This document shows positions 50,373 to 64,000 of a stretch of DNA of 64,000 bases, one piece after another. This DNA comes from Pleurocapsa sp. FMAR1. GTDB taxonomy: Bacteria; Cyanobacteriota; Cyanobacteriia; Cyanobacteriales; Xenococcaceae. Within the stretch, counting starts at the first letter, position 1. Each line of letters opens with the position of its first letter. The stretch spans positions 4,278,001 through 4,342,000 of the forward strand of contig NZ_OY762512.1 of assembly GCF_963665995.1 (NCBI RefSeq), given 5' to 3'. Below the pieces are notes generated by a model that saw nothing but the letters and a program-made list of their open reading frames with translations, was not told the DNA's origin and ran no database searches. The translations under genes were made by a program, and so were the position numbers.

Positions 50373-51620
50373 CTAGACAGGACACAAAAATCTTTTCTTG
50401 AGTAGTTCGTGACTGGCACGTCCATACATTTGCCTTTTTAACATCTTGAGTCGATTAACTTGTCCTTCTACTTGCCCATTGCTCCATTGATAAGTCACTC
50501 CATTTGTGACTGCATCTAAATCATCTTTTAGTTTGTTCGCAAAACCACTAATGGCTCTTATCTTACTTTCCTCGGCGTTTTTCAACCATTCTGCTAATTT
50601 ATTTTGTTTCTTGGTGCGCGTTCCCTTGCGCCTGTCGGCGACGCGGGGTCGCACCGCTTTTCGACGAACTAAATCGGCAAAATCCATTGCTAAAGAAATT
50701 CCCGTATTAAGATCTGGATGTTGTTTTTTCAATAATTCAATGGCTTCCGTTTCGGCTTTGTTTTGGTTGAGCTACAACTTTTTGATCTTCAATAATCGGA
50801 CAATTATTGGTCTCATCTTCCACATTCTTCAGTAATGTTCGGTGTTGATTCAACACTACTTCTAACATTTGAGCTAAATTTTGTAGTAAGTGGAAGCGGT
50901 CTGCTATTTGAATGGCTTCTGGACATCCTCTTGACGCTCCTTCTTTATAAGCTTTGGCTCTATCTCTGGAGATGATTTCAACCCCAGGATGCTCTTGTAG
51001 CCATTCGGCTAAAGTTGTAGCTGTGCGGTCAGATAACAAGTCTATTGGCTGACGAGTTTCCAAATCTACCAAAATAGTACCGTAGGTGTGGCGTTTACGA
51101 TAAGCCCAGTCATCAACTCCTAAGACTTTTGGGACAGGGTGAGATGGTAATGGCATTTTCATTACTAACCTGAGTAGGGTTTGACGGCTAATTTTTACTC
51201 CTAAGTGTTGAGTCAAACGTGACCCTGGTAATCCTCCCTGTGCTAAACCTACTTTAATAAGTTGAATATTCAATCGCTCTGTTCGTCTCGCCCAAGGTGC
51301 TGCTATTTTGGGTAATCTCTGTGTGAAAATTCGACGCTCACAATTTGAGTTTGAACAAAATAATTTTCGGGTTGAAAGCTTCAAACAGACTTGATAGTTC
51401 CCCCAAGATACATCTAATAGCGATCGCTGATAATTACTATGAACAATATCGCTTGTTGAATTACAAATTGGACAAACTGCTTGTATATTCTGGGTTTTGA
51501 CTTGTATTGTTAGTTTGTTTTCTGTCTCACTGATTGACCAAGATGTTATCTTGAGGCAAAAAAATCAGGTAGTAAATGTTGTAGTAAACGAGAATTGTTT
51601 AAGGGCTGGTTTTCTGACAT
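50373..51620 (-). pseudogene. ISL3-family transposase with two frameshifts and an inserted repeat
   Basis: ATG 51620 begins MSENQPLNNSRLLQHLLPDFF. The frame is lost in a T run near 51570 and resumes with SETENKLTIQVKTQNIQAVCPIC, the ISL3 zinc finger, then VLGVDDWAYRKRHTYGTILVDLE with the first DDE aspartates and VEIISRDRAKAY. A second frame break near 50735 separates the last part (ISGFANKLKDDLDAVTNGVTYQWSNGQVEGQVNRLKMLKRQMYG), which has the final Glu. Residues KAVRPRVADRRKGTR there come from the repeat at 50626-50650. Element ends are unclear; the right end is disrupted. Confidence 0.88.
50626..50650. repeat. Dispersed repeat inserted in frame in the ISL3-family transposase
   Basis: TTGCGCCTGTCGGCGACGCG plus GGGTC is identical to 51975-51999. 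On the coding strand both give RPRVADRRK. Confidence 0.85.
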
Positions 51621-51639
51621 AAATATAGCATTACGCATA

Positions 51640-52339
51640 TACGTTAGGACATTTTTTGAAAGCTGTATCAACACATTCTCTAACAGTCTCAAATTCTTTA
51701 ACTCTCTGCTTCATCTTTCCTTCTTTAAATGCAGCAATCCAACTTACTCTCTCATTTCTTTTACCAGATTTGAGTGCCTAACATCTTTCTCCTTTGGGGC
51801 TATAACCATAGGGATAATCGTCTCGGTTATCGAATCCTGCTTCATCCACATAAACTAGGTTATTTGCCTGTTGATGTTTTAGTTGCTCTTGAAATTCTTT
51901 TCTTTTCTCTTCATCTGTTTCTTGATACCCGTAAGTTTGTCTTGGTCAGCGTACATGCGGGCAAGCCCTTTGTCTTGCGCCTGTCGGCGACGCGGGGTCT
52001 GACCGCTTTTTTTCTGGTTATGCCTAACTTTTTAATTCCATCACTAATATTTTGCTGGGTAAGATTCTCTCCCCACAAATCTGCCATTTGCTGTTGTGTC
52101 TTATCTTTATGTTGTTTAACAAACTGTTTGAATCTCTCTAAATCCTGAATTTTTCGCTCTTCTCTGGTAAGACGCTCGGCGACCGCTTTAAAGTCTCCTG
52201 TTTCTTGTTCTCTTTTCAGCCATAGGTCTAAGGTGTTACGGCTTATTTTCATCAATCGACAAATAGTTCTCTTCTTTTCACCTCTAGAACAGGCATCTAC
52301 GGCTTTTTTTCTTAAATCGTAGCTATAGGGAGCAGGCAT
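51640..52339 (-). pseudogene. IS630-family transposase remnant
   Basis: ATG 52339 starts APYSYDLRKKAVDACSRGEK, the helix-turn-helix half, up to LTQQNISDGIKKLGITRKKA. Two dispersed repeats (51952-51999) are inserted next, giving VRPRVADRRKTKGLPAC. The frame then shifts to YVDEAGFDNRDDYPYGYSPKGERC-stop with the first catalytic Asp and resumes after a deletion with MKQRVKEFETVRECVDTAFKKCPNVYA. The DNASFHK and PPYSPDFNKIEHWW segments that hold the other catalytic residues are absent, so it cannot transpose by itself. Confidence 0.88.
51952..51999. repeat. Two adjacent dispersed repeats in the IS630-type transposase
   Basis: The first 23 bases equal 9027-9049; the next 25 (51975-51999) equal 50626-50650. 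The two units lie end to end here and separately elsewhere, showing that they are distinct modules. Confidence 0.85.
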
Positions 52340-54038: not shown

Positions 54039-55121
54039 TTACCCGTTAATTGCAGGTGCAGTTAATGCTACAGGAGCTTGAGCGCCACTTGCTAAATCAA
54101 GCGGGAAGTTGTGAGCGTTACGTTCGTGCATTACCTCAAAACCCAGGTTAGCTCGGTTTAAGATGTCTGCCCAAGTGTTGACTACACGTCCTTGTGAATC
54201 CATTACCGACTGGTTGAAGTTGAATCCATTTAGGTTGAACGCCATGGTGGATATTCCCATTGCTGTTAACCAGATTCCAATCACTGGCCATGCTCCTAAG
54301 AAGAAGTGCAAGGCTCTGGAGTTGTTGAAGGATGCGTATTGGAAGATTAGACGACCGAAGTAGCCGTGGGCTGCGACGATGTTGTAGGTTTCTTCTTCTT
54401 GTCCGAATTTGTATCCGTAGTTTTGTGATTCGGTTTCAGTTGTTTCACGAACTAAAGAAGATGTTACTAGTGAACCGTGCATGGCGGAGAATAATGCTCC
54501 ACCGAATACTCCTGCTACTCCTAACATATGGAAGGGGTGCATCAGAATATTGTGTTCTGCTTGGAATACCAACATGAAGTTGAATGTTCCAGAGATACCC
54601 AGAGGCATTCCATCACTGAAGCTTCCTTGTCCTAGTGGATAGATAAGAAATACTGCTGTGGCTGCCGATACAGGTGCTGAGTAAGCTACACATATCCAAG
54701 GACGCATTCCTAAACGGAATGATAGTTCCCACTGACGACCGAGGTATGAGAATACGCCGATCAAGAAGTGAAAGACAATCAGTTGGTATGGTCCACCGTT
54801 ATACAGCCACTCATCAAGTGAAGCTGCTTCCCAAATTGGGTAGAAGTGAAGACCAATTGCGTTAGAACTAGGTACTACTGCACCAGATATGATGTTGTTT
54901 CCGTAAAGCAAGGAACCTGCTACAGGCTCTCTGATACCATCGATGTCTACTGGTGGTGCTGCGACGAAGGCGATTAGGAAACAGGTTGTTGCTGCAAGTA
55001 GTGTAGGAATCATCAAGACGCCGAACCAACCGACATAAATGCGGTTGTTGGTGCTGGTGATCCACTGACAGAACCTTTCCCAGCTATTCTGGGTTTGGGT
55101 TTGTTGTAGAGTGGTTGTCAT
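54039..55121 (-). CDS. psbA: Photosystem II reaction-centre protein D1 (Q130 form)
   Basis: The 360-residue protein is a complete D1. Residue 130 is Gln ([11 protein letters not shown]), the low-light D1:1-type signature. Tyr161, Asp170, Glu189, His190 and the C-terminal manganese ligands ([13 protein letters not shown]) are in place, and the 16-residue extension [16 protein letters not shown] after Ala344 is of standard length for CtpA processing. D1 binds P680, pheophytin, QB and the Mn4CaO5 cluster in the thylakoid. A consensus promoter lies upstream and a strong hairpin terminator downstream. Psb genes of this type are members of multigene families, so other copies are expected elsewhere. 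Confidence 0.98.
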
Positions 55122-55631: not shown

Positions 55632-56321
55632 TTACATAGTCTCGATCGCTTCAATCAATGCTTGAGAATCTGCCACTGTACCAAAGACACCCCCTTGCAT
55701 TTGGATCATCTTTAACGCTGCTAAATGATTAGCGTAATCCGTTGCCCCTGTACAGTCAGACAGCAGCAAACATTCATAACCGCGATCGTTAGCATCACGC
55801 ATCGTCGTATGAACGCAAACATCGGTGGTAATGCCTGATAAAATAATATTTTGGATGCCTTTACCTTTTAAAATTAAGTCTAAATCGGTGGCATAAAACG
55901 AGCCTTTTCCTGGCTTATCAATAATGGTTTCTTCAGGAAGAGGGGCAAGTTCGGAAATGATTTCCCATCCAGGTTCACCTCGTACTAAAATTTTGCCACA
56001 CGGACCTGGATCGCCGATTCCAGCACCAATTTGACGACTCCGCCAGCGTTTATTGGCGGGCAAATCTGCTAGATCGCGGCGATGCCCCTCGCGGGTGTGC
56101 ATGATATGAAAACCCTTATCTCGCATTATTCCAAGGACTTTAGCAATCGGTTCGATTGGCGCACGGGTTAACGATAGGTTGTAGCCCATCTTATCAACAT
56201 AACCCCCAATACCGCAGAAGTCGGTCTGCATATCGATAATTAACAACACCGTGTTTCCAGGTCGCAAATCGCCATTATAGGGATAGGGATAGGGTTCTGC
56301 TGAAATAAACATAGGTAACAT
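55632..56321 (-). CDS. biuH: Isochorismatase-fold cysteine hydrolase, probable biuret amidohydrolase
   Basis: The 229-residue protein has the catalytic triad of the family: Asp in [12 protein letters not shown] (about 30), Lys in [14 protein letters not shown] (about 137) and Cys in [19 protein letters not shown] (about 170), with the cis-peptide before it. The N-terminus [12 protein letters not shown] and the [25 protein letters not shown] segment resemble what I remember of Rhizobium biuret hydrolase more than RutB or nicotinamidases. It would convert biuret to allophanate and ammonia. It is the last gene of the nitrogen operon, 213 bases after the NCS2 permease. Confidence 0.75.
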
Positions 56322-56534: not shown

Positions 56535-57950
56535 TTACTCGCGATCGCCAGGCACTATTATATTAAGAACGAGGGCTGCTATCCCTCCTGTAGCAATGCC
56601 AGAGGAGAAAACGCTTTTGATTAAATAGGGCGTATTTTCTAAAATTTCTGGTACAAACGAAACCCCCATACCAAGTCCTAGAGAAACAATTAAAATTAGC
56701 GTATTGCGCTGACTCAAATTCACACCTTGCAGAATCTTGATACCAGATGCTACAACTGAGCTAAACATCAGCAGCGTTGCGCCCCCCAAAACAGGTTGAG
56801 GCATAGCCTGAAACAATCCTCCAACGAGCGGAAATAGTCCTAGCAACACTAAAATTCCAGCAATAAAATATCCTACATAGCGACTGCCCACACCTGTCAA
56901 TTGAATCACGCCGTTATTTTGACTAAAAGTTGTGTTAGGAAATGTGTTGAAACACGCTGCAATCAAAGAGTTTACTCCGTCTCCTAAAATTCCTCCCTTG
57001 ACTCGCCGTAAATAGATTTCCCCCTCAATGGGTTCTCCTACTAGCATTGAAGTTGCGGTCAAATCACCAATGGATTCAATGGTTGTAATTACATACAAAA
57101 ACGCTAAAGGAATAAATCCAGCCAAGCTAAAATCAAATCCATATCGAAACGGAATCGGCACAGTTATATAAGGAAGCTGACCCAAACTGCTAAAGTTCAG
57201 CATACCTAGAGGCAAGGCAACGAGATAGCCTACCACTAAGCCAATGAGAATTGCTGACATACGAAGGAAGTTACTGCCAGTGCAATTGAGGACAACAATT
57301 ACAGTTAATACCAGTAGCGAAACACCAAGGTTTTCTAGGCTGGCAAACGTACCCGCTTCCTCTGAACCTGGACCACCTGCCATTGCTGTAACCGCTACCC
57401 GAATTAAAACTAACCCAATTAGCACGACAACAATACCACTCACCAGAGGAGTTATGACTTTTTTGAGGGGTTTAATGAACTGGCTGAGAATAATCTCAAT
57501 AAATGAACCTAGTAGACAAATAGTCAGTAAGTTAGCCAAGGTTTGAGTTGGCGAACGTCCTGACTCGATCGCGGCGGTGCCAACAGTCACAATCGTTCCG
57601 ACAAATGCAAAACTAGTTCCCTGAATGCTTAATAAACCCGAACCAATCGGACCGATGCGGTGAATTTGAATGAATGTAGCAATACCAGAGATAAACAGCG
57701 ACATACTAACTAGAAAGCTGATATCATTAGCTTCCAAACCGATACTGTTCCCGACCACGAGGGCAGGGGCAATGATATTAACGAAGGCTGCCAGTACGTG
57801 TTGTAGAGCAGCAGCAAGAGTTTCTGGCAAGGCAGGTTTAGCCTCCAATCCATAAATCATATCTGTGGCTTGGGGTTTTAGCGGTGGAGATTCATGCACG
57901 CTAGCGGTTTCGGCAGAGACATCTAATTGCAATGGATTTCGATCGGTCAT
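56535..57950 (-). CDS. NCS2 nucleobase:cation symporter (xanthine/uracil permease family)
   Basis: The 471-residue protein has about 14 membrane segments and the NCS2/NAT marks: QGTSFAFVG in helix 3, the substrate-binding TTIESIGDLTATSMLVGEP with its Glu, and the signature TTFSQNNGVIQLTGVGSRYVG with the conserved Gln-Asn-x-Gly. The N-terminus YGLEAKPALPETLAAALQHVLA is like the xanthine/uric-acid subgroup. It imports purine bases, uric acid or uracil with H+ or Na+. It lies 29 bases after the AH_C-domain gene, so it is in the operon. Confidence 0.88.
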   Translation of the reverse strand: MTDRNPLQLDVSAETASVHESPPLKPQATDMIYGLEAKPALPETLAAALQHVLAAFVNIIAPALVVGNSIGLEANDISFLVSMSLFISGIATFIQIHRIGPIGSGLLSIQGTSFAFVGTIVTVGTAAIESGRSPTQTLANLLTICLLGSFIEIILSQFIKPLKKVITPLVSGIVVVLIGLVLIRVAVTAMAGGPGSEEAGTFASLENLGVSLLVLTVIVVLNCTGSNFLRMSAILIGLVVGYLVALPLGMLNFSSLGQLPYITVPIPFRYGFDFSLAGFIPLAFLYVITTIESIGDLTATSMLVGEPIEGEIYLRRVKGGILGDGVNSLIAACFNTFPNTTFSQNNGVIQLTGVGSRYVGYFIAGILVLLGLFPLVGGLFQAMPQPVLGGATLLMFSSVVASGIKILQGVNLSQRNTLILIVSLGLGMGVSFVPEILENTPYLIKSVFSSGIATGGIAALVLNIIVPGDRE

Positions 57951-57979: not shown

Positions 57980-58363
57980 TTAATTTTGGGAGTTAATATA
58001 GTTACGCCAGCCACCATATTGAGTAATTTCTTTACCGTTTTCGCAGCAAATCGATTCGCCAACAACACCGAGAATTTCTGACCCATTATCGAGCATTATT
58101 TTGCCAATACACAAGCCTGGAGGTTCTTTGAGCAGTATTTTAGCCAAACCTGCTGGAGGAACAGCCCAAACTTCAACGGCGATCGCCTTACCTTTTTCAG
58201 ACACACGCATCATGGCAGGGTGAACATCATCGATAGAAAACAGGCGATATGCAGGTTCAGTAAAGGCTTCTTTAACAAAAGTAGCTTTTACTGCCAGAAG
58301 ATTTTGATTAAGTTCCAACCCCCGCATTAAAGTTCCGTTGACGGCAAGCTCAATATCGCTCAT
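57980..58363 (-). CDS. Stand-alone allophanate-hydrolase C-terminal domain (AH_C)
   Basis: The 127-residue protein equals the C-terminal domain of AtzF/DUR1,2 allophanate hydrolase: LAVNGTLMRGLELNQNLLAVKATFVKEAFTEPAYRLFSIDDVHPAMMRV, AVEVWAVPPAGLAKILL, GLCIGKIMLDNGSEILGVV and the closing ITQYGGWRNYI. In full enzymes this domain decarboxylates N-carboxycarbamate produced by the amidase half. Here it has no amidase-signature domain, but its start overlaps the stop of the AmiF-type amidase by four bases (ATGA), so the two are made together. A role as partner of that amidase is inferred. Confidence 0.85.
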   Translation of the reverse strand: MSDIELAVNGTLMRGLELNQNLLAVKATFVKEAFTEPAYRLFSIDDVHPAMMRVSEKGKAIAVEVWAVPPAGLAKILLKEPPGLCIGKIMLDNGSEILGVVGESICCENGKEITQYGGWRNYINSQN

Positions 58364-59379
58364 GACTCGACTGGTGCGGACATGGGTAATGCCTGATATT
58401 CTCTAGTGGGTGTGGGAAAACCGCAGGATGTACCGTCTGTGTGAACTACTTCATTTTCCCAAGGTAAGCGATAATTGCCATTAACCAAGTCCTGCATATA
58501 GGTATACGGACAGTCTTTGGCACCACCTTTGACCGCCACATAACCCCGATGACCAAACTGATAGATGTTGTTTTCTACTGCCCAGTGTTTACGGGCTTCG
58601 CGCACTAGATCGGGTCTAACTTCGGCAGTAATTATTTCATTGGGGCGATCGCTTCCTGTAACTAAAGGCATACCGTCAAAGTTGACAATTGCACCTTCTC
58701 CCATGGAATCAAAAGTTCCATCTGTCCCACACATACAGACCGAGGCAGTGTACATCAAATTGCAAAAGGCATTGGCTTGATTAGTAATGCGCCAAGAATG
58801 ACGAATCGGTGCAGTATAACCTGCGGTACGAATCATAATTTCTGCCCCTTTGTAGGCACATTCTCGCGCCATTTCGGGAAACATTCCATCATGGCAAATA
58901 ATTAGGGCGATGGTGCTGCCGTTTGGTCCTTCACACACGGGAATACCTAAATTACCTGGTTCCCACGGTTCGACGGGAACCCAAGGATGTAATTTGCGAT
59001 AGTAAAGCTTTAATTCCCCGCGATCGTCGATAATAATGCCGCTATTGTAAGGATTACCGTGTGGATTGTATTCCATAATTGAAAAGCAGCCCCAGATTTT
59101 ATGCTTCTGACAGGCCGCCCTGAAAGCTGACACTTCTGCACCATCCAAGCGACACATAATTTCTGGATTGGTATCCATAGATAAGCCATGCAAAGCATAT
59201 TCTGGAAACACGACTAGATCCATGGTTGGCATATTGCGTCTAGCTTTGCCTACTAAATCGCAAATTCTTTGGGTTTGCGCTGCCAAATCGTCGGGCGTTA
59301 CCACGTTAGGTAACTGAAGTTGTACCATACCGAGAACGACCCCAGCAGGAGATTTATTTAAGCCACCAAGTCCACTCAT
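58360..59379 (-). CDS. AmiF-type formamidase/aliphatic amidase (nitrilase superfamily)
   Basis: The 339-residue protein is full length for AmiF. Catalytic residues are Glu in VVFPEYALHG (about 61), Lys in YYRKLHPW (about 133) and Cys in LIICHDGMFPE (about 166); also NPYNSGIIID, YTAPIRHSWRITNQANAFCNLMYT and NIYQFGHRGYVAVKGG match H. pylori AmiF. AmiF hydrolyses formamide to formate and ammonia; other amides are possible in this context. It is translationally coupled to the AH_C-domain gene, which would be unexpected for a simple formamidase and suggests allophanate or a related carbamoyl compound as substrate. Confidence 0.85.
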   Translation of the reverse strand: MSGLGGLNKSPAGVVLGMVQLQLPNVVTPDDLAAQTQRICDLVGKARRNMPTMDLVVFPEYALHGLSMDTNPEIMCRLDGAEVSAFRAACQKHKIWGCFSIMEYNPHGNPYNSGIIIDDRGELKLYYRKLHPWVPVEPWEPGNLGIPVCEGPNGSTIALIICHDGMFPEMARECAYKGAEIMIRTAGYTAPIRHSWRITNQANAFCNLMYTASVCMCGTDGTFDSMGEGAIVNFDGMPLVTGSDRPNEIITAEVRPDLVREARKHWAVENNIYQFGHRGYVAVKGGAKDCPYTYMQDLVNGNYRLPWENEVVHTDGTSCGFPTPTREYQALPMSAPVES

Positions 59380-59447: not shown

Positions 59448-60374
59448 TCATTTATTCGTACCCAATGCCCCTGGTGCGCCAGTCAACCGTCGTTTGGGGG
59501 AACAGGTAATAATCATAATTACCAAAGTTAAGACGTAGGGAATGGCATTAAAAAGATAGTAACCCCAATCAATTCCTACCGATTGCAGGGCAGGTCCAAT
59601 TGAGCGCGCACCGCCGAACAATAGCGAAGCATAAAGACACTGAATTGGATTCCAGCGAGCAAAGATTACTAGTGCTACTGCTATCAATCCTTGACCGCTA
59701 GAAATTTGTTCTGTCCAAACACCAGGATAGTAAAGAGAAAGAGAAGCACCGCCAATTCCCGCTAAAAAACTGCCGATGGTAACACTCAGCATTCTGACTT
59801 TAAACACTGAGATGCCCATTGCCCTGGCAGCATCGGGATAATCTCCTACAGCGCGGATGTACAAGCCCCAGCGAGTAGATTTAAAAAACCACTGCATTAA
59901 AAAAGCGATCGCGATTCCCAAAATAAATAAAGGACTAATTTTAAGTGCTGCTTGGACTTGAGAAATACTACTCCAATTACCCAAGTCGAGCGTGGGAAGT
60001 TGAGTAGCAGCAGGTTTGATAAAAGGTTTACCAAGGAAAAATGCAACTCCGCTACCAAAAATAATCATGGCAATGCCTACTGCCACATCATTAACTCTCG
60101 GCTGTTGAGAGAGCCAGCCGTGAACCACACCTAAAACCATTCCTGCCAGTCCCGCAAACAATACCCCCAGCCAAGGAGAACCCGTTAAATAGGAGATGGC
60201 ATAGGAACTCATCGCTCCAGTTAATAGAGTCCCTTCTAATCCTAGGTTAATTTTGCCGCTTTTTTCGGTGAGGCATTCTCCCAAACTGACGAACAAAAAG
60301 GGAACGCTACCCTTGAATGTTCCAGCAATAATGCCTAGTGGTACGCCCCACCAACCTAATGCTTCTGTAGCCAT
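59448..60374 (-). CDS. ABC transporter permease, NupQ/YufQ-like (BMP-type purine or nucleoside uptake)
   Basis: The 308-residue protein has about eight membrane segments and the branched-chain/ribose permease pattern: LGECLTEKSGKINLGLEGTLL with the EKSGxxNLGxEG motif, GMVLGVVHGWLSQQPRVNDVAVGIAMII, the RAVGDYPDAARAMGISVFKVRML coupling loop and IGGASLSLYYPGVWTEQISSGQGLIAVALVIFARWNP. It forms a pore with the next permease upstream in the operon. The family takes up nucleosides, purines and, in cyanobacteria, possibly other nitrogen compounds. Confidence 0.88.
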   Translation of the reverse strand: MATEALGWWGVPLGIIAGTFKGSVPFLFVSLGECLTEKSGKINLGLEGTLLTGAMSSYAISYLTGSPWLGVLFAGLAGMVLGVVHGWLSQQPRVNDVAVGIAMIIFGSGVAFFLGKPFIKPAATQLPTLDLGNWSSISQVQAALKISPLFILGIAIAFLMQWFFKSTRWGLYIRAVGDYPDAARAMGISVFKVRMLSVTIGSFLAGIGGASLSLYYPGVWTEQISSGQGLIAVALVIFARWNPIQCLYASLLFGGARSIGPALQSVGIDWGYYLFNAIPYVLTLVIMIITCSPKRRLTGAPGALGTNK

Positions 60375-60406: not shown

Positions 60407-61507
60407 CTAAACACGAGACAATTGGTCATCAGGAGTAAGATTACTGAGGGGTTTTTTTCGTTCTTGAAAGAAAGCAAAACGTCCATAAAGAGAATCGCTG
60501 TACAATACCATCAAAAAAACCAAACCTTGGAAAACTAGAACTGTAGCATCGGGAAGATTGTGCGATCGCTGTAGAATGCCACCGCTAGCCAAAATACCAC
60601 CCAGCAAAGTCGCTACCAATGCTGCTGCCAAGGGATTATGACGAGCGACGAAAGCGACTAAAATACCGCCATAGCCGTAACCTACATTGAGAGATTCATT
60701 TGCCACGCCCTGAACTGCCGCTACCTCAACCATGCCTGCTAAACCTGCACAAGAACCTGCTAAAAAACAGATGATAATAGTCAATTTACCGACTGGGAGT
60801 CCTGCTATCTGTGCGGCACGAACATTTCCTCCAGCAGTGCGAGCGGCAAAACCAAAGGTGGTGCGCTGAATTAAGACATATGCCACAACACAGGCAATTA
60901 GCCCATAGATTAAGCCATAGTGAATACGAGTACCAGGTATATCACCCAAGCGGTTAATTTCGGCAATCGGAAAAGTTGACGGCTTATTCAGAGAACTCGG
61001 ATCGCGCATTGGTCCGCCCACTAAATGATTGAGTAGGGCGATCGCAATATAGTTTAAGAGCAAACTGCTAATGGTTTCATTCACGGCTCGATAATGACGC
61101 AAGGCTCCTGCGATCGCAATCCAAATTCCGCCAAACAGCATTCCTCCCATTGCCATACTGATTTGAATCAGTACTGGAGATAAAGATTCATCTAACGCAA
61201 GCCCAACTATAATTGCACCTAATCCCCCCATGACTAATGCACCTTCATTGCCAATAATTACTAATCCCAAACGGGCTGGAAGTACAGTACACAAAGAACT
61301 CAACATCAAAGGCGAAGCTTGAATAAATGTTCTTTGCCAAGCACTCCATCCGCCAAAGGCTGCCTTATAAATTGAGCCGTAAACCTCCAGGGGATTTGCC
61401 CCCACTACGGCACAAAAAATTCCAAAGATAATCAGTGCTGCCAAAACTGCACCCACTGGAATACAAATTGCTTCTAAACTTTTACGCCAGTTATATCGAT
61501 CAATCAT
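60407..61507 (-). CDS. ABC transporter permease, NupP/YufP-like
   Basis: The 366-residue protein has about nine membrane segments with LCTVLPARLGLVIIGNEGALVMGG (family glutamate motif), HYRAVNETISSLLLNYIAIALLNHLVGGPMRDPSS, GGNVRAAQIAGLPVGKLTIIICFLAGSCAGLAGMVEV and GYGYGGILVAFVARHNPLAAALVATLLGGILASGG. It is the second pore subunit of the BMP-type importer. Its start is joined end to end with the stop of the binding-protein gene. Confidence 0.88.
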   Translation of the reverse strand: MIDRYNWRKSLEAICIPVGAVLAALIIFGIFCAVVGANPLEVYGSIYKAAFGGWSAWQRTFIQASPLMLSSLCTVLPARLGLVIIGNEGALVMGGLGAIIVGLALDESLSPVLIQISMAMGGMLFGGIWIAIAGALRHYRAVNETISSLLLNYIAIALLNHLVGGPMRDPSSLNKPSTFPIAEINRLGDIPGTRIHYGLIYGLIACVVAYVLIQRTTFGFAARTAGGNVRAAQIAGLPVGKLTIIICFLAGSCAGLAGMVEVAAVQGVANESLNVGYGYGGILVAFVARHNPLAAALVATLLGGILASGGILQRSHNLPDATVLVFQGLVFLMVLYSDSLYGRFAFFQERKKPLSNLTPDDQLSRV

Positions 61508-62674
61508 TTAAACACTTCCTTGCACCCCGTCTACTAGCCAATCTGTTGTCTCTAGTTCGAGCGCAGTTTGTTGGTAAGATTTGCCATCGGGAAGAATTAT
61601 TTTTCCCTGATTATCTTTAAGTTCTCCTGTGTAAATTACCATAGTTCCATTAGCAAATTTGTCTTTAACTGCTTCGGCATCTGATTTAGTCGCTTCACTT
61701 ACTGCTGGTCCATAAGCAGATAGTTTCCAAAAATTTTCTGGAAGACCGCCACGAATTGTATGGGGAATTTCTCCATTCATCAGTGTTTTACCTTCTTTGA
61801 CCAAATTTGCATACTGAGTATAAACACTTTTCCAGTCCCACTCTGCCCCAGTCAAATAGGCTTTGGGTGCTAATGCCGACTGATCGGTATGGTATCCCGT
61901 ACAAAAAACCCCTCGTTTACTCGCGGTTTCGATGACTACTTTGGGACTATCAACATGGCAGGTAATGACATCAGCACCTTGATTTACCATACTGTCAACC
62001 GCTTCTGCTTCTTTTACAGGGGCAGCCCAATCTCCTGTAAACACGACTTGAGTAGTAATTTTAGGGTTAACGCTTTTTGCTCCTAATGTATAGCCATTAA
62101 TGTTGCGTAAGACCTGGGGAATCGGCTTGGCAGCGACAAAACCTAGTTTTCCAGTTTTTGTGTTGTTGGCGGCAACAACTCCAGCAATATATTGCGCCTC
62201 ATCAATGTAACCAAAATAAGTACCGACATTTTCTGGCATTCCCTCTTTATAAAGTCCTCCAGCATGGAAAAACTGCACCTCGGGAAATTCTTCAGCTATT
62301 TTGAGAATGTGCGGATCGAAGTATCCAAAAGAGGTAGGGAATAAAATTTTCGCCCCATCTATCTCTATCATCTCCCGCATTGTCTCTTGTACGGCTTGAG
62401 TTTCGGGAACATTAGCCTGTTCGACAATTTTAAACCCAGGCAGTTGAGCAACTGCTGCTGCCCCTTCTGCATGGGATTGATTGTAGCCAAAATCATCTTT
62501 AGAACCGACATAAATAAAGCCGACAACAATTGGTTCAGCTTCCGAGGCGGTTTCATCCGATGAAGCTTGGTTAGTGCATCCAGTGCCAAATTTCGCGGTT
62601 AAACCAAAGGCTGTAGTTGCTAATATGCCTCTAACAATCTGACGACGGGATAATTTTAAACTTTTTTTATTCAT
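61508..62674 (-). CDS. BMP-family (PnrA/TmpC-like) substrate-binding lipoprotein
   Basis: The 388-residue protein starts with KLSRRQIVRGILATTAFG, a twin-arginine-like signal, and has KFGTGC as lipobox (cysteine about 33). The mature part is the BMP fold: PIVVGFIYVGSKDDFGYNQSHAEGAAAV, VQETMREMIEIDGAKILFPTSFGY, VGTYFGYIDEAQYIAGVVAANNTKTGKLGFVAAKP and VFCTGYHTDQSALAP. BMP proteins bind purine nucleosides or similar; the ligand here may be an ureide or amide given the hydrolases in the operon. Confidence 0.88.
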   Translation of the reverse strand: MNKKSLKLSRRQIVRGILATTAFGLTAKFGTGCTNQASSDETASEAEPIVVGFIYVGSKDDFGYNQSHAEGAAAVAQLPGFKIVEQANVPETQAVQETMREMIEIDGAKILFPTSFGYFDPHILKIAEEFPEVQFFHAGGLYKEGMPENVGTYFGYIDEAQYIAGVVAANNTKTGKLGFVAAKPIPQVLRNINGYTLGAKSVNPKITTQVVFTGDWAAPVKEAEAVDSMVNQGADVITCHVDSPKVVIETASKRGVFCTGYHTDQSALAPKAYLTGAEWDWKSVYTQYANLVKEGKTLMNGEIPHTIRGGLPENFWKLSAYGPAVSEATKSDAEAVKDKFANGTMVIYTGELKDNQGKIILPDGKSYQQTALELETTDWLVDGVQGSV

Positions 62675-62798: not shown

Positions 62799-63515
62799 TT
62801 ATTCATAAAAGCTCATATCCAACTTATTGTTTTTGACATAGCCTCCACTAAAAGACAAAGCCTGTATGAAATTTTCACTCGTCGTAGTCCACCCCACAAT
62901 TCCTCCTTGAGCGCGAATCATCTCTAAGGTAGATTGTTTAAATTCAGGAAAATAGCTGGCAGTGGCATCTTCAACTAACAAACATTCATAACCGCGATCG
63001 TTAGCTTCGCGCATTGTTGTCTGTACGCAAACTTCAGTAGTAACTCCAGTAAGGATTAGGTGAGTTATATTTTTTTCCTGTAACCAAGATTCTAAACTGG
63101 TTCGATAAAATGCTCCTTTACCTGGTTTGGCAATGACTATCTCATTTGCAAGAGGTTGCAATTCGGGAATAATATTGTTACCTGGTTCTCCCAAAATTAA
63201 TATTCGACCCATAGTACCCATATCGCCTATTTTTAGCTGGTTTTGACCTCGCTGTAGCTTTGATGGTGGACAATCAGATAGATCGCTTTGATGACCTTCT
63301 AACGTATGAAAAATAGGTAAAGCGCGATCGCGAAATGTGTCTAAGATCTGCTTGACAGTTGGCACAATCTTTTGCAGTTGACTAATATCATTACCTAAAG
63401 CCTCTCCGAACCCCCCTGATTCTAAAAAATCTCGCTGCATATCAATAATTACTAACGCCACGCGATCGAGGCTGGGTATTTCATATTCGTAGGGCAGGGC
63501 TGGGATTAAGACCAT
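62799..63515 (-). CDS. Isochorismatase-fold cysteine hydrolase, second copy (ureido-compound type)
   Basis: The 238-residue protein has the triad Asp in [15 protein letters not shown] (about 24), Lys in [15 protein letters not shown] (about 128) and Cys in [19 protein letters not shown] (about 161). It shares the [23 protein letters not shown]-type segment and [11 protein letters not shown] with the gene at 55632 in altered form. The two are paralogues with different substrate loops. It could act on triuret, ureidoacrylate-like or other carbamoyl compounds. It lies between ATPase and binding-protein genes of the importer, inside the operon. Confidence 0.8.
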
Positions 63516-63565: not shown

Positions 63566-64000
63566 CTAATATCCCGCCATGCGTTGACCAATAGTGTTAA
63601 GGTCTGCTTCAGCAGCCGCACTTTCATAAACCAGCTTTCCTTCGCTAATGGCAAAAATGCGATCGCACAGCTTGAGCAGTTCGTCTAAGTCTTCGCTGAC
63701 AAGCAGTACGGCTACGCCTCGATTTCTAGCTTCTACAATTGAGCGATGAATAAAATCTACCGCACCAAAATCTAGACCAAAGCAGGGATTAGCTGCAATT
63801 AATAACTCAATTTTAGGAGAAGATAATTCTCTGGCTAATACAGCACGCTGGACGTTTCCCCCTGAAAGATTGGCTATGGGAGTTTCTGGAGATGGAGTAC
63901 TGACGGAGAAGGTTTGAATTAGGCTTTTAGCAGCCTGGCGAATAGCTTTTAAAATTAAAAATCCACCTTGAGATTGGGGAGGGAGATCGAATGTTCGTAG
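63566..64000 (-). CDS. ABC transporter ATP-binding protein, NupO-like, 5' end outside window
   Basis: The last 144 codons of the gene are visible on the minus strand, ending TAG at 63566. The signature IANLSGGNVQRAVLARELS, a degenerate Walker B region (LLIAANPCFGLDFGAV) and a switch-like SEDLDELLKLCDRIFAISEGKL are those of the second ATPase half of sugar/nucleoside-type double ATPases (NupO, RbsA). In the second half the Walker B acidic residue is usually replaced, as here (NPCFGLD). It powers the two permeases downstream and is the first visible gene of the operon. Confidence 0.9.
   Translation of the reverse strand, partial: LRTFDLPPQSQGGFLILKAIRQAAKSLIQTFSVSTPSPETPIANLSGGNVQRAVLARELSSPKIELLIAANPCFGLDFGAVDFIHRSIVEARNRGVAVLLVSEDLDELLKLCDRIFAISEGKLVYESAAAEADLNTIGQRMAGY

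Follow-up and report, generated by a model that had tools for sequence, protein, structure and literature searches.

A stand-alone AH_C protein in a triuret/biuret-type gene cluster of Pleurocapsa sp. FMAR1 probably does not make up one half of a split allophanate hydrolase

Described pathways and the Pleurocapsa cluster

According to the accessible portions of the published accounts, carboxybiuret is made by TrtA and allophanate by BiuH (PMC7948467, PMC5806882), AtzH is a proposed 1,3-dicarboxyurea decarboxylase (PMC6219798), and what becomes of BiuH-made allophanate in Rhizobium leguminosarum 3841 was called unknown (PMC5806882, PMC6219798). The TrtA-(TrtB)-BiuH-AtzF pathway with bmpA-nupABC, as described in the available parts of PMC7948467 and PMC12625717, shares a TrtA-like protein, BiuH and a BMP-type ABC importer with the cyanobacterium Pleurocapsa sp. 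FMAR1. It differs in that we found no AtzF in Pleurocapsa, but instead a lone AH_C protein of a type marked by the residues 'NGTL', together with the amidase AmiF, in a cyanobacterial host.

AtzF and DUR1,2 share the AH_C domain family with the Pleurocapsa protein. Unlike these enzymes, the Pleurocapsa AH_C has no amidase-signature partner, lacks the 'GAH' histidine and lies outside the His-type clade. The Escherichia coli CFT073 protein C_RS22505 is likewise a stand-alone NGTL-type AH_C near a TrtA-like hydrolase, but it lies with FdrA, DUF1116 and DUF2877 proteins, a carbamate kinase and a cytosine permease, and there was no AmiF in the stretch. From its position and a structure match we infer that C_RS22505 is c4763 (PDB 5c5z). 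The part of PMC7558591 available to us credits c4763 with a role in urea breakdown, citing earlier work. The AtzD-BiuH cluster on pRL10 of R. leguminosarum shares the BMP transporter, AmiF (78% identical) and BiuH-type and TrtA-type genes with Pleurocapsa, but its operon has no lone AH_C. An annotated atzF lies elsewhere on three other rhizobial replicons with the same AmiF (CP091033, CP071623 and CP090094).

We analysed a 64,000-nt stretch of the Pleurocapsa sp. FMAR1 genome (the window; the genome, a single contig, is G000 in our survey). We observed nine co-directional genes on the - strand, encoding an ABC ATPase, a TrtA-like protein, BmpA, two permeases, AmiF, AH_C, an NCS2 permease and BiuH (Table 1). 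The widest intergenic gap in the cluster is 213 bases, just before BiuH. The ABC ATPase, whose full ORF lies at C1:4341566-4343110 in the genome, is 67-74% identical to homologues of related clusters. No homologue of the NCS2 permease was labelled among the annotated related clusters. BiuH exceeded the NF050097 equivalog cut-off (404 vs 370 bits). The TrtA-like protein fell under this BiuH cut-off (246 vs 370) and was nearer to TrtA than to BiuH in the comparison with solved structures (286 vs 195 bits); we take 6xix to be the triuret hydrolase TrtA. On its gene content, the cluster seems to be of the triuret/biuret (ureide) import-and-breakdown type, with allophanate hydrolase absent.

The original prediction had read AmiF and AH_C as a split allophanate hydrolase, in which AmiF deaminates allophanate and AH_C decarboxylates the N-carboxycarbamate product. 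Its description of the genes was accurate: the four-base overlap, the lone AH_C domain, the formamidase family of the overlapping gene and the biuret-hydrolase-like enzyme two genes on, beyond the NCS2 permease, were all recovered. The TrtA-like gene and the BMP-type ABC transporter had not been part of it.

Table 1. Features of the Pleurocapsa cluster, in window positions unless marked otherwise.
Feature	Position	Strand	Match or note
BiuH, biuret amidohydrolase	55632..56321	-	NF050097 404 bits; PDB 6azo 401 bits
NCS2 xanthine-type permease	56535..57950	-	TIGR03173 427 bits, cut-off 414
Lone AH_C, 'NGTL' type, 127 aa	57980..58363	-	Pfam PF21986 137 bits
AmiF stop/AH_C start, 4-base overlap ATGA	58360..58363	-	TCAT on +
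AmiF-type nitrilase-superfamily amidase, 339 aa, clade linked to BiuH clusters	58360..59379	-	NF009803 579 bits
ABC permease A (BPD_transp_2)	59448..60374	-	Pfam 143 bits
ABC permease B (BPD_transp_2)	60407..61507	-	Pfam 96 bits
BMP-type substrate-binding protein	61508..62674	-	Pfam PF02608 147 bits
TrtA-like triuret hydrolase homologue	62799..63515	-	PDB 6xix/6xj4 best, 286/281 bits
ABC ATPase, extends beyond window end	63566..64000	-	full ORF L003:1567-3111

Exact NtcA-type boxes (GTA-N8-TAC) were not more frequent than expected by chance in the window and L003. By eye, we read ORF pieces resembling transposase remnants at 50373-52339, ~3 kb from the cluster, and a psbA-like gene at 54039-55121 between them and the cluster.

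AH_C types and AtzF in cyanobacteria

The Pleurocapsa AH_C protein spans Pfam PF21986 end to end (positions 1-122 of 123; 137 bits, cut-off 27). Apart from this, Pfam gave a single, weaker match, to GGACT (26.5 bits, cut-off 22.8). The nearest solved structure is 5c5z, and C_RS22505 of E. coli CFT073 is 52% identical to the Pleurocapsa protein. In an alignment of the AH_C rows from our loci, the GAH histidine, which is catalytic in the AtzF C-domain, was present in 27/27 fused AtzF C-domains; the window's type carries NGTL at this position. Of 49 rows initially grouped with the window's type, four, all lone AtzF-type copies from cyanobacteria (G060, G185, G085 and G241), carry the histidine. 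All 49 keep Glu at alignment column 79 and Trp at column 81. A third type carries 'CGSA' in a GntR/DUF1028 context. In a tree of 93 rows, with few columns and long branches, the fused and His-type lone rows formed one clade (98/93) and the GntR type a separate one (100/99); a weaker branch (75/76) set apart the window's type together with the E. coli and a Clostridia row. Three AH_C types can now be told apart under a single Pfam label.

Pleurocapsa carries two AH_C genes, the cluster copy and a CGSA-type copy at L004:6937-7347 (C1:4476936-4477346) with a GGACT match of 51 bits. The second copy is flanked by a GntR-like regulator and a DUF1028 protein, and by eye we read an M20-type hydrolase ~4 kb away. 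AH_C lies in two frames in both L060 (G215) and L123; these are decaying copies, and BiuH of G215 is broken too. On a Clostridia plasmid (L089:8001-9225), an NGTL-type AH_C (57%) lies beside a nitrilase-superfamily protein of another kind; this AH_C/nitrilase pairing is independent.

The original prediction had named an active full AtzF elsewhere in the genome as evidence that would count against it. We looked for AtzF, whole or split, and found none in the Pleurocapsa genome: the best match to the allophanate-hydrolase model reached 225 bits (cut-off 511) and was a GatA-like gene, compared to 557-590 bits for true split amidase halves. No AtzE over cut-off was found in this genome either. Its four amidase-signature (PF01425) genes comprise one GatA-like by reading and three that best match other NCBIfam amidase models, below cut-off; there are also two isochorismatase-type genes. 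A hidden AtzF was ruled out, as none of the four amidases came near the AtzF or AtzE cut-offs. Thus the predicted biuret-to-allophanate gene set without AtzF held up, with TrtA-like, BiuH and importer genes in the cluster. As for a split AtzF, the genome has no AtzF-type amidase-signature half.

True split forms are present in other cyanobacteria. In G060, G185 and G241, an amidase-signature protein that scored 557-590 bits with the AtzF model lies beside a lone His-type AH_C (loci L263, L264 and L266), and G085 looks similar. A model-scored urea carboxylase directly precedes the split AtzF in G185, where DUF1989 proteins are also found; in G060, a carboxylase-like gene of the same size lies a few genes away. 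G060 also has a BMP-BiuH-TrtA cluster without AH_C or AmiF, its split AtzF and His-type AH_C lying elsewhere. Cyanobacteria do split AtzF, yet keep the usual amidase fold.

Distribution and neighbours of AH_C and AmiF

AmiF exceeded the cut-off of the NCBIfam formamidase model NF009803 (579 vs 406 bits). Its C162, E60 and K129 are conserved and align with formamidases of known structure; presumably they form the Cys-Glu-Lys catalytic triad. We observed that 85/85 rows of the AmiF clade share T185, A186, T189, P191 and R193 around Tyr188, where three formamidase rows differ. From these residues, the substrate of the clade may have shifted from that of formamidases. AmiF relatives below cut-off (~265 bits), in G193 and as a second gene in Pleurocapsa, were treated as outside the clade.

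We sampled the phylum evenly (292 cyanobacterial genomes). AmiF over cut-off was present in 7/292, comprising two proteins at 45-46% identity and five of the window's clade, namely Pleurocapsa and four genomes with 85-87% identical proteins. AH_C of the window's type (≥58% identity) was present in 11/292 genomes from 11 genera, with the G215 copy in two pieces. BiuH over cut-off was present in 10/292, plus the broken copy in G215. Ten genomes were common to the two sets of 11 (Fisher P = 1e-16, relatedness ignored); the exceptions were G233, with AH_C and no BiuH, and G060, with BiuH and the His-type AH_C. All five genomes with window-clade AmiF have AH_C and lie within these ten. Thus the co-occurrence expected by the original prediction was seen from the AmiF side (5/5) but not from the AH_C side, where AmiF over cut-off was missing from 6/11 genomes. 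The AtzF model had no match over cut-off in any of the 11. G133, G289 and G193 have AH_C and BiuH without AmiF, AtzF or AtzE over cut-off, and in G133, G129 and G289 AH_C lies within or beside a transporter-BiuH cluster from which AmiF is absent.

We also scanned AmiF relatives, of which the closest are cyanobacterial, taking the best 80 of at least 587 loci (48 cyanobacterial and 32 other). Many of these are limited by contig ends, and in this set AH_C lay within 1 kb of AmiF at 8/48 cyanobacterial loci, and BiuH within the fetched flank at 24/48 cyanobacterial and 20/32 other loci. The four-base overlap was also found in L093, a close relative (AmiF 94% identical) with the same order. L116 has a four-base overlap too, but in reversed order, with AH_C first; the remaining six loci with both genes within 1 kb have AH_C first and no overlap. 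One of the 48 loci was not counted at the genome level. Of the 47 genomes counted, G315 is apparently identical to G005 in contig and position. Among the other cyanobacterial AmiF genomes from these best 80 loci, AH_C was present in 43/47 (one in two pieces; no match in the other four) in frames of at most 226 aa, and hence lone. BiuH was over cut-off in 44/46, with G060 excluded. AtzE was over cut-off in 30/46 (36/57 overall, six from the phylum sample). Urease alpha was found in 54/59 genomes, including 13/13 from the phylum sample and two genes in Pleurocapsa, with no match in the other five.

Outside cyanobacteria, AH_C was present in 26/32 genomes with the same AmiF clade from these best 80 loci. 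In 24/32, this AH_C belongs to a single-frame, near full-length AtzF, and in 8/32 a full-length AtzF lay inside the fetched AmiF locus itself. Two rhizobial plasmids have, like pRL10, an operon with AmiF and no AH_C, and one rhizobial plasmid has an operon without AmiF. On a Sulfitobacter plasmid, the operon includes AmiF, and an allophanate hydrolase annotated at 596 aa lies two genes ahead of it. A betaproteobacterial plasmid operon carries AtzF and AtzH (HpxZ), and no AmiF. The presence of AmiF and full-length AtzF in the same genomes argues against allophanate as the AmiF substrate.

AH_C of the window's type precedes BiuH in some genomes and adjoins it in G133, G289 and G292, directly follows TrtA in G304, G297 and G321, and lies beside AtzG-AtzE in nine genomes, with AtzG confirmed by Pfam at one locus. 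AtzGE as a universal partner of AH_C was ruled out by its absence in G000, G133, G289, G193 and G233, and AmiF as an obligate partner was ruled out by its distribution. None of 27 AtzE loci from cyanobacteria, which represent 23 genomes and with one exception include ~1.5 kb of flank, yielded AtzH. Five loci of proteobacteria (L141, L155, L159, L167 and L168) have it downstream of an AtzE-type gene, but they are a non-random sample picked because AtzH was already visible. Beside AtzGE, AH_C occupies the place that the proposed decarboxylase AtzH takes in some proteobacteria. A ChrR-type cupin occurs together with AH_C and TrtA in G005, G289 and G193.

Candidate roles of AH_C and AmiF

The neighbours TrtA, BiuH and AtzGE have an expected N-carboxylated urea product as their common factor. 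The reading we favour, at a little less than an even chance, is that the stand-alone NGTL-type AH_C is an N-carboxyurea decarboxylase that supplies urease, AmiF being an amidase in an accessory role. On this reading, TrtA would convert triuret to carboxybiuret and BiuH would convert biuret to allophanate, both products being N-carboxylated ureas (R-NH-COO-). AH_C would then decarboxylate carboxybiuret to biuret and allophanate to urea, and in AtzGE-bearing genomes also 1,3-dicarboxyurea; the urea would pass to urease. In this role, AH_C would replace the proteobacterial AtzF and AtzH. We infer that AmiF does not complete a split AtzF as its amidase half but would serve the cluster in an accessory way, acting on a small amide of its own, formamide or a relative. 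It would be the one AH_C neighbour that does not fit the pattern, its product not being an N-carboxyurea.

The genome distribution appears to count for an N-carboxyurea decarboxylase, as AH_C goes with BiuH (10/11) and not with AmiF (5/11). Also for it are the lack of AtzF-model matches over cut-off in the 11 AH_C genomes, the true split AtzF in G060 (the one BiuH genome without this AH_C type), the neighbours BiuH, TrtA and AtzG-AtzE, the 0/27 result for AtzH, the frequency of urease (54/59) and the E. coli AH_C in a cluster with a TrtA-like hydrolase. According to the accessible part of PMC6219798, allophanate and 1,3-dicarboxyurea form urea spontaneously under physiological conditions, which suggests that the decarboxylation chemistry is easy. 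By the same token, spontaneous decarboxylation and urease might be sufficient without AH_C, and the ChrR-type cupin, which we guess to be TrtB, may already decarboxylate carboxybiuret. Against this reading, loss of the histidine could equally signal a different reaction, the activity of AH_C being a prediction; G233 has AH_C without BiuH, 5/59 genomes gave no urease match, and among the best 80 of at least 587 AmiF loci, 4/47 cyanobacterial genomes gave no AH_C match and 8/48 cyanobacterial loci have AH_C beside AmiF, whose product would on this reading be no N-carboxyurea. A further version, which we hold possible if more doubtful, gives this decarboxylase a catalytic set unlike that of the AtzF C-domain: the free-standing NGTL-type AH_C would replace AtzF and AtzH and make the cyanobacterial triuret/biuret pathway a urea/urease route, and in E. 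coli the same protein type would work with a TrtA-like hydrolase and a set of carbamoyltransferase and carbamate kinase. For the fate of allophanate in cyanobacteria, the pattern suggests as a candidate a free AH_C that lacks the AtzF histidine, and this can be assayed at once. In literature drawn mostly from outside subscription journals, we found no paper that mentions both a biuret hydrolase and cyanobacteria.

Judged from these sequence comparisons, the lone AH_C and the adjoining formamidase probably do not form a split allophanate hydrolase. We consider that arrangement unlikely, even though the genes overlap in Pleurocapsa, which lacks AtzF and AtzE over cut-off, and AH_C accompanies the AmiF clade in 5/5 sampled genomes. 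Further points for it are the high frequencies of AH_C (43/47) and BiuH (44/46) among the other cyanobacterial AmiF genomes from the best 80 loci and the clade-invariant residues around Tyr188; allophanate may be the AmiF target in the window's lineage. Replacement of the AtzF amidase half by AmiF is nevertheless opposed by the six AH_C genomes without AmiF, by full AtzF alongside AmiF in 24/32 other genomes and by the few close pairs (8/48, many loci being limited by contig ends) among the best 80 of at least 587 loci, as well as by the missing histidine and by the true split AtzF, which joins AH_C to an amidase-signature protein. Equally unlikely is that AH_C decarboxylates only carboxybiuret, as a TrtB equivalent, with allophanate decaying to urea unaided. 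The AH_C genes directly after TrtA in three genomes would fit such a role, as would the TrtA product carboxybiuret, with an estimated half-life of ~20 min in the accessible part of PMC7948467; against it, the cupin lies beside TrtA alongside AH_C in three genomes.

Slightly less probable is a non-catalytic AH_C, acting as a stabiliser or subunit of BiuH, TrtA or AtzGE. Loss of the AtzF histidine and the shifting neighbours are consistent with this, but the invariant Glu and Trp (49/49) and a GGACT-like motif in place of GAH argue for a working pocket. We regard as least probable of all a gamma-glutamyl-cyclotransferase-like chemistry on another metabolite. The GGACT match points this way, as does the Clostridia relative, which lies beside a protein nearest to deaminated-glutathione-amidase models, below their cut-offs; the tight link with BiuH in cyanobacteria stands against it.

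No urease gene was present in the E. coli CFT073 stretch that we read, which suggests that the urea route of an N-carboxyurea decarboxylase would not be general. The E. coli cluster (L064:13190-20403) encodes a cytosine permease, an NGTL-type AH_C, a carbamate kinase, DUF1116, FdrA, DUF2877 and a TrtA-like cysteine hydrolase. This isochorismatase-type hydrolase is 57% identical to the Pleurocapsa TrtA-like protein. A similar gene order was observed on an IncF plasmid (L090:2426-9636).
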